Assembly (NCBI GenBank): GCA_014764515.1
Contig: JACXWD010000026.1
Coordinates: 1 to 40,198, forward strand
Length of the DNA: 40,198 nt
Direction of reading: 5' to 3'
Source: Candidatus Polarisedimenticola svalbardensis
Lineage (GTDB): Bacteria; Acidobacteriota; Polarisedimenticolia; Polarisedimenticolales; Polarisedimenticolaceae
Part shown: positions 1 to 22,653 of the stretch, in pieces
How the letters are laid out: each line of letters begins with the position of its first letter
Position numbering within the stretch: position 1 is the stretch's first letter
Translations under genes and position numbers: made by a program
The notes under the pieces: model-generated
What the model saw: only the letters and a program-made list of their open reading frames with translations
The model's database searches: none
Told to the model about the DNA's origin: nothing

Positions 1-563
1 GCGCTCATCTCGACGTCCAGAATCACATAAGGCTTGAAAACCGGCTCACCGGTGTCCTTCTGAACCACATTGGAGGAGATAAACGGGAAAGCGGCCCCCT
101 TGATCCTCTTCATGAAGGCGTCGTAACCAAGATTCAGGTCCCGGAGGCCGACGTTGGCGGCCCGGTATCCCAGTTTCCCCATCCCTTCCACCAGCCCGCG
201 GGTCTTGGCATCACCTGCCGGACTCGGGTTGTCGGAGATGTTGCCGCTGTCCAGCAGGAGCTGTGTGCTTTCGGGGAAGTTCGTCTTGAGCTGATCGATT
301 AACCAGGCCCTCCGGGCCAGGCCCCCTGCGGGGTTCTTCTTTCAGCCGCAGGGATCGACGTACCCGATGACGTCGCCGGTATAGAGCAACGTCAGGTCCG
401 CACCAGGTCCAGGGGCGATCATCGCGCCGCGAGGAGGCCGGAAACTGACCTGGCCTTCTTCTTCGGCCTGTGCGTAAGCGATCTGGCCTCCCCCGACCGC
501 CAGTGCGGCCAGCGTCAAAGCGGCGAACGCGAGACGCAGATCTCCCCGATTGAGACTTTTCAT
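1..563 (-). CDS. Selenocysteine-containing metallophosphatase / 5'-nucleotidase-like protein (partial, UGA read through)
   Basis: The start ATG (563-561) has GGGAGGG about 9 nt upstream and opens a signal peptide (basic MKSLNRGD, hydrophobic core to about residue 26, AYAQA cleavage-like site). Residues 58-73 read LTLLYTGDVIGYVDPCG and then meet TGA at 344-342. In the same frame the next 113 codons are open to the window edge and read KKNPAGGLARR, LLLDSGN, NVGLRDLNLGYDAF and FPFISSNV. That is the usual order of secreted calcineurin-like metallophosphatases (UshA/5'-nucleotidase type), in which 'G-Y-x-x-PCGC-x-x-N-x-x-GGLARR' normally has Cys at this spot. So the UGA most simply encodes Sec74 in a Cys72-Gly73-Sec74 motif, with a SECIS-like hairpin just downstream. 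The family normally hydrolyses nucleotides or phosphate esters in the periplasm; the role of CxU here is inference. The C-terminal half lies outside the window. A sequencing error or nonsense mutation is the alternative. Confidence 0.8.
301..344 (-). promoter_or_regulatory. Candidate bacterial SECIS element downstream of the UGA
   Basis: On the minus strand the TGA (344-342) is followed 28 nt later by the apical loop GGA (313-311). The loop is closed by CCTGGCCC (321-314) pairing with GGGCCTGG (310-303): seven Watson-Crick pairs and one U-U mismatch, extendable by G-U pairs at the base. Known bacterial SECIS elements have an apical loop roughly 16-37 nt after the UGA with a G among its first two loop bases; both hold here. 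A second small hairpin, CCCC-GCA-GGGG (333-323), could form instead. GC-rich coding DNA forms hairpins easily, so this supports rather than proves recoding. Confidence 0.6.
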
Positions 564-673: not shown

Positions 674-1303
674 ATGCGGCTTATGCAAAAGATCGCCCTC
701 ATCCTGGCCTCGGCGTCTCCCAGGCGAAAGGAGCTTCTGCGCCGGGTAGGACTCCAGCCTGAAGTCCATCCTCCGGATGTGGATGAAACCATCATCGCAG
801 GCGAGAGCCCTGCCGCACTGGCGACCCGGCTTGCTTCCGCCAAGTGCAGGCAGGTGGCGGACGCCCTCGATGCAGGGAGTGACCGGCTCATCCTGGCGGC
901 GGACACGGTGGTGGTGGTCGACCAGGCGATTCTCGGAAAGCCGGTAGACCAGGATGATGCCCGCTGCATGCTGGAATCGCTCAGCGGCAGGACACACCAG
1001 GTCATGACGGGGGTGTCCCTGCATCGCACCGATACCAGACGGCAGGCGGATGGAATCGGTGTCACCGACGTGCGGTTCCGGGTTCTCGATACAGCCTGGA
1101 TCGACTGGTATCTCGCCACCGGAGAGCCGCAGGACAAGGCCGGAGCTTATGGTATCCAGGGTGCGGGAGCCGTACTCGTCGATTCGATCCGGGGCTCCTG
1201 GTCCAATGTGGTCGGTCTTCCGCTGGAGATGTTGCCGGGATGGCTGGAGGCTCTCGGCCTCAGCTTCCAGGACCTGTCCGTTCAGCCGACCAGGCTGCCG
1301 TAG
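674..1303 (+). CDS. maf: Maf-like nucleoside triphosphate pyrophosphatase
   Basis: Maf/YhdE-family enzymes hydrolyse non-canonical or modified NTPs (such as dTTP/UTP or m7GTP) to monophosphate and pyrophosphate in the cytoplasm. The N-terminal signature ILASASPRRKELL is present, followed by VDETIIAGESP, LILAADTVVVVD (the conserved acidic pair) and LSGRTHQVMTGV, then a C-terminal KAGAYGIQGAG motif, all in family order. Length is 209 aa, normal for the family. ATG at 674 was chosen; ATG at 683 (MQKIALILAS) is equally possible, as no clear Shine-Dalgarno decides. The upstream open frame to 566 has no family resemblance. The gene is divergent from the selenoprotein gene, and its last 22 nt overlap the 3' end of gcvH tail to tail. 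Confidence 0.9.
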   Translation: MRLMQKIALILASASPRRKELLRRVGLQPEVHPPDVDETIIAGESPAALATRLASAKCRQVADALDAGSDRLILAADTVVVVDQAILGKPVDQDDARCMLESLSGRTHQVMTGVSLHRTDTRRQADGIGVTDVRFRVLDTAWIDWYLATGEPQDKAGAYGIQGAGAVLVDSIRGSWSNVVGLPLEMLPGWLEALGLSFQDLSVQPTRLP

Positions 1304-15250: not shown

Positions 15251-15288
15251 CGCCTGTCACCCTGCGCCCCGGCAGAACCGACTGCCGT

Positions 15289-15692
<404 letters not shown>

Positions 15693-22578: not shown

Positions 22579-22653
22579 GGAGCGGGAAACGGGACTCGAA
22601 CCCGCGACCCTCAGCTTGGGAAGCTGATGCTCTACCAACTGAGCTATTCCCGC
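22578..22653 (-). tRNA. tRNA-Gly (anticodon CCC)
   Basis: Complete cloverleaf on the minus strand: acceptor GCGGGAA/TTCCCGC, D arm GCTC-AGTTGGTAGA-GC, anticodon stem CAGC/GCTG around loop TTCCCAA (anticodon CCC), T arm GCGGG-TTCGAGT-CCCGT, discriminator T and an encoded CCA (22580-22578). It decodes GGG. Its 3' end is repeated twice downstream. Confidence 0.95.

Follow-up and report, generated by a model that had tools for sequence, protein, structure and literature searches.

How should we understand a reading frame that begins like an exported protein, is interrupted by a single UGA, and then stays open to the very end of the DNA? Such a frame lies at the edge of the window, the stretch of 40,198 bases analysed here, which is the whole of contig C137 of genome G000. 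When the minus strand is translated from 563 to 1, a signal-peptide-like start is followed by only one interruption, the TGA at 344-342, which comes directly after ...YVDPCG and is followed by 113 open codons up to the contig end, just as the first-pass annotation had described it. Considering all the evidence below, we regard it as very probable that the frame belongs to a genuine selenoprotein gene, which is a short member of the NF041198 family lacking hemes, and that its product would be a periplasmic redox protein and not a phosphatase. The features on which the discussion depends are as follows.

1..563, minus strand: 5′ part of the UshA-like predicted selenoprotein gene, 187 codons including the UGA, with the rest on contig C142
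342..344, minus strand: UGA predicted to encode selenocysteine within the motif C-G-U (TGA in 22 of 30 homologues, TGC or TGT in 8 of 30)
302..322, minus strand: bacterial SECIS-type hairpin within the coding sequence, GCCUGGCCC-GGA-GGGCCUGGU, with a G in the apical loop of three nucleotides
683..1303, plus strand: maf, the divergent neighbour of the UshA-like gene

Elsewhere the window carries a complete RNase P RNA of bacterial class A (15285-15692, minus strand, 302.5 bits) and a tRNA gene (22581-22653, minus strand, 73.5 bits).

Since the window is the entire contig, the gene ends there at the contig end and not at a stop codon. The remainder is found on another contig (approximately G000:C142:2-490): the last 15 bases of the gene strand on C137 are the first 15 of C142, the frame runs through, and the ORF closes immediately 5′ of ruvX, to give a joined protein of about 346 amino acids. 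The family model tells the same story, in that the window part ends at profile position 157 and the model picks up position 159 onward at the first bases of C142. The join is supported further by the same-genus genome G001, in which the gene is unbroken on one contig and the gene order is identical. This arrangement, with maf divergent from the UshA-like gene and ruvX and mltG following it, is kept throughout the order and is shared with one further family of the class. That the frame from 563 to 1 together with its part on C142 makes up a true selenoprotein gene is well supported, and it had been spotted correctly from sequence alone. It is a clean case: a standard gene caller would cut this selenoprotein short, and the contig end splits it further.

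What stands at the UGA position in other organisms? Homologues were searched in 120 related genomes and found in 73 of them, many being flagged with one internal TGA. In the alignment of the best 30 sequences among these homologues, the column is occupied by Sec (TGA) in 22 and by Cys (TGC or TGT) in 8, and by no other residue, so that the variability of this column which the first-pass annotation had named as an argument against its reading did not appear. Chance would not explain this: in the same-genus homologue, too, this codon is UGA, and the sequence on either side of it is 78% identical. Within the order of the window's genome the gene is present in 10 of 10 genomes, as a UGA form in eight and a Cys form in two. 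The motif had been described as PCGC, which holds for C-G-C/U, invariant in the alignment of homologues, but not for its Pro, at whose position P, D, T, E and Q all occur.

A second sign is expected in the RNA. Each of the UGA genes can form a GC-rich hairpin about 20-40 nt 3′ of the UGA, with a three-base loop starting with G. The window's gene carries such an element, a stem-loop shortly after the UGA with a G in its apical loop, as looked for in a bacterial SECIS; its stem has one internal U-U mismatch. Across 21 distinct UGA genes, 93% of the pair cells hold standard pairs, and two pairs show changes on both sides. Their covariation score of 0.244 compares with 0.096 after shuffling and at most 0.081 when the partners are slid. 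Compared with a synonymous-codon null, every UGA gene folds more stably than expected, if singly only to a modest degree (P lies between 0.0025 and 0.17, and is 0.10 for the window's own hairpin when judged by energy), while most Cys genes are not more stable than the null, the folding energies being weak. In one Cys gene (L029) the stem is broken, yet the same GGLARRA peptide is encoded. Because the sequences are related, these hairpin tests are supportive and not independent.

Decoding of UGA as selenocysteine needs its own machinery, and the first-pass annotation had asked for it in the same genome. There, a tRNA-Sec is found at 73 bits, which ARAGORN also calls, together with selA (485 bits), selB (326 bits) and selD (366 bits), all of them above the cut-offs. 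The selD gene has an in-frame UGA of its own, in a CAGU motif (L062:1501-2439 = G000:C54:14872-15810), and is by its sequence a second predicted selenoprotein gene of this genome. Contamination of the assembly is given as 4.9%, but the finding is repeated, as a UGA gene with tRNA-Sec and selA, in each of two other genomes, G001 and G004, the latter holding all three together on its one contig. Loss of the machinery along with Sec was not found in the genomes with a Cys gene: tRNA-Sec is kept in all of them and selA in all but one. In this exception (G018) tRNA-Sec is above the cut-off and selA has no match, which may come from missing sequence or from another route. The two Cys forms of the order, L029 in G003 and L023 in G007, likewise sit in genomes which still have tRNA-Sec and selA. 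Sec has thus been exchanged for Cys in G003 and G007 without loss of the Sec machinery. As the Sec form and the Cys form are each found where this machinery is present, comparing them is a natural way to see what selenium contributes.

Could the UGA be nothing but a sequencing error, or the mark of a pseudogene truncated at this point? A lone in-frame stop close to the 5′ end of a gene, at a contig edge, is what one might expect of either. However, the same UGA codon is found in 21 independent homologues from at least eight families, the frame 3′ of it is conserved with 48-78% identity among members of the order, the hairpin is kept in UGA genes and degraded in most Cys genes, and the genome has the genes to decode Sec, so that we reject this explanation as highly improbable. 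Just as little credit can be given to the idea that a reassigned code or a suppressor makes UGA stand for Trp or Cys here, and it is rejected too: the open frame would agree with it and nothing more, whereas TGA is a stop for other genes of the genome (the UshA-like gene's own terminator is followed by ruvX), elsewhere the column holds Cys, and the genome has tRNA-Sec, selA, selB and selD. For the reading as a selenoprotein, which the first-pass annotation had proposed from the window, the Cys/Sec column, the Sec decoding genes and the homologues all agree, and the SECIS-type hairpin comes in addition.

If the gene is a selenoprotein gene, what does its product do? The gene had been called a metallophosphatase with phosphatase activity. 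The fold part of this name survives: the model predicted for the same-genus homologue (pLDDT 90) agrees with 5′-nucleotidases and SoxB in their N-terminal domain, its confidence being lowest in the loop with the Cys-to-Sec motif (mean pLDDT 59 over residues 31-40). But at the two-metal site, six of the seven ligand positions of the 5′-nucleotidase family are replaced in the window's gene. Compared with solved 5′-nucleotidases, D-x-H has become D-V-I, GD has become GN, GNHE has become GLRD, the histidine of SH/TH is A, and GGHSx is GAYGG. The lost equivalents are H43, D84, N116, H217, H252 and Q254 in E. coli UshA numbering; the motif comparison rests on alignments with solved structures. Only the first Asp is left of the ligand positions, and it varies within the family, in which the invariant positions are C-G-C/U and structural glycines. 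Phosphatase activity is therefore doubtful for this protein, and, the metal site having been lost, the name UshA-like misleads as to function. Might the protein still work as a selenoenzyme of metallophosphatase type, similar to a nucleotidase or a thiosulfohydrolase, with Sec as a metal ligand in place of the lost His or Asp? Its fold and best sequence relatives are those of 5′-nucleotidases and SoxB, and C-G-U comes directly after the position of the D-x-H metal motif and may be near the former site. As six ligand equivalents have been exchanged and the one Asp that is left varies in the family, we consider this unlikely.

The reading that we prefer is a periplasmic selenothiol redox protein, which is most likely the role of this UshA-like protein. 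We propose that SelB and Sec-tRNA(Sec) are brought in by the hairpin just 3′ of the UGA, which would then be read as selenocysteine in C-G-U, and that the protein is exported to the periplasm by its signal peptide. There, a calcineurin-like N-terminal domain that keeps little of the two-metal site and is without a substrate-binding domain would act not as a phosphatase but in redox reactions, because those parts are lost, with Cys-Gly-Sec as the active group forming a reversible selenenylsulfide pair.

With what would such a pair exchange electrons? Most relatives in the class have a C-terminal domain of Cytochrome_C554 type with four CxxCH motifs, and in this long form electrons may pass to or from the fused four-heme domain. 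The window's gene ends after the metallophosphatase-like domain, the C-terminal multiheme part of NF041198 (profile about 400-511) being absent, and the heme domain is missing also from seven of the nine other members of the order. Such a short form would exchange electrons with a separate partner. No cytochrome gene or other partner was found beside the short-form gene, next to which maf, ruvX and mltG are conserved; separate small multiheme cytochromes of the genome, for example on contig C177, could be candidates. The one on C177 (L013, G000:C177:30681-30983) is small, exported and similar to the multiheme C-terminal domain which the long form has and the short form lacks. In a tree whose root is not fixed, the distribution of hemes takes at least two changes and that of Sec and Cys three, and the Cys replacements L023 and L029 sit inside the Sec group. 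Loss of the hemes in the window's order is the simple reading since the outgroups have them, and it possibly occurred more than once, or with regain. Tentatively, and with somewhat more doubt than confidence, we suppose that the short form is an offshoot of the metallophosphatase fold which became metal-free and turned into a selenothiol redox enzyme, the four-heme fusion coming first and being uncoupled later in this order while Sec was kept. If this is true, a redox family has been built on a dead phosphatase scaffold.

How does the gene stand among known systems? The first-pass annotation knew of no description of the family as a selenoprotein, which was wrong. UshA-like (COG0737) selenoproteins with CxU were reported in the 2008 GOS ocean survey, with 76 selenoproteins and 92 Cys homologues in the passage concerned (PMC2398784), and they also stand in the lists of reviews of 2022 and 2026, so the family is already known. 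The GOS proteins share motif and superfamily with the window's gene; they are marine metagenome fragments, and that passage is silent both on a heme domain and on metal ligands being lost. The short form had no match in Pfam, scans of genome contigs and viral contigs with single proteins as queries gave no relatives, and there was no close match in the plasmid search and none in the defence library. NF049981, UshA-like (seleno)protein family 2, matches weakly along the first 83 positions, at 35 bits where its cut-off is 140, and is listed with CxxU, not CxU. Like E. coli UshA and other periplasmic 5′-nucleotidases, and like the thiosulfohydrolase SoxB, the window's gene has an N-terminal calcineurin-like fold (TM about 0.7), but it differs from them in the absence of the C-terminal nucleotide-binding domain, in the loss of most metal ligands and in the C-G-U insertion. 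By far the best family match is NF041198, UshA_like_PCGU, an NCBIfam model named UshA-like (seleno)protein, although the window fragment (108 bits) and the complete same-genus L020 (167 bits) both fall below its curated cut-off of 275. The window's gene has the C-G-U/C motif of its UshA-like domain, within P-C-G-U as in the model, and aligns in the calcineurin-like domain over profile 20-276, whereas profile 280-519 or so, the four-heme cytochrome part, is absent from the window's type. What is new here is thus only a hemeless member scoring below the cut-off of NF041198, which adds a hemeless branch to the known UshA-like family.
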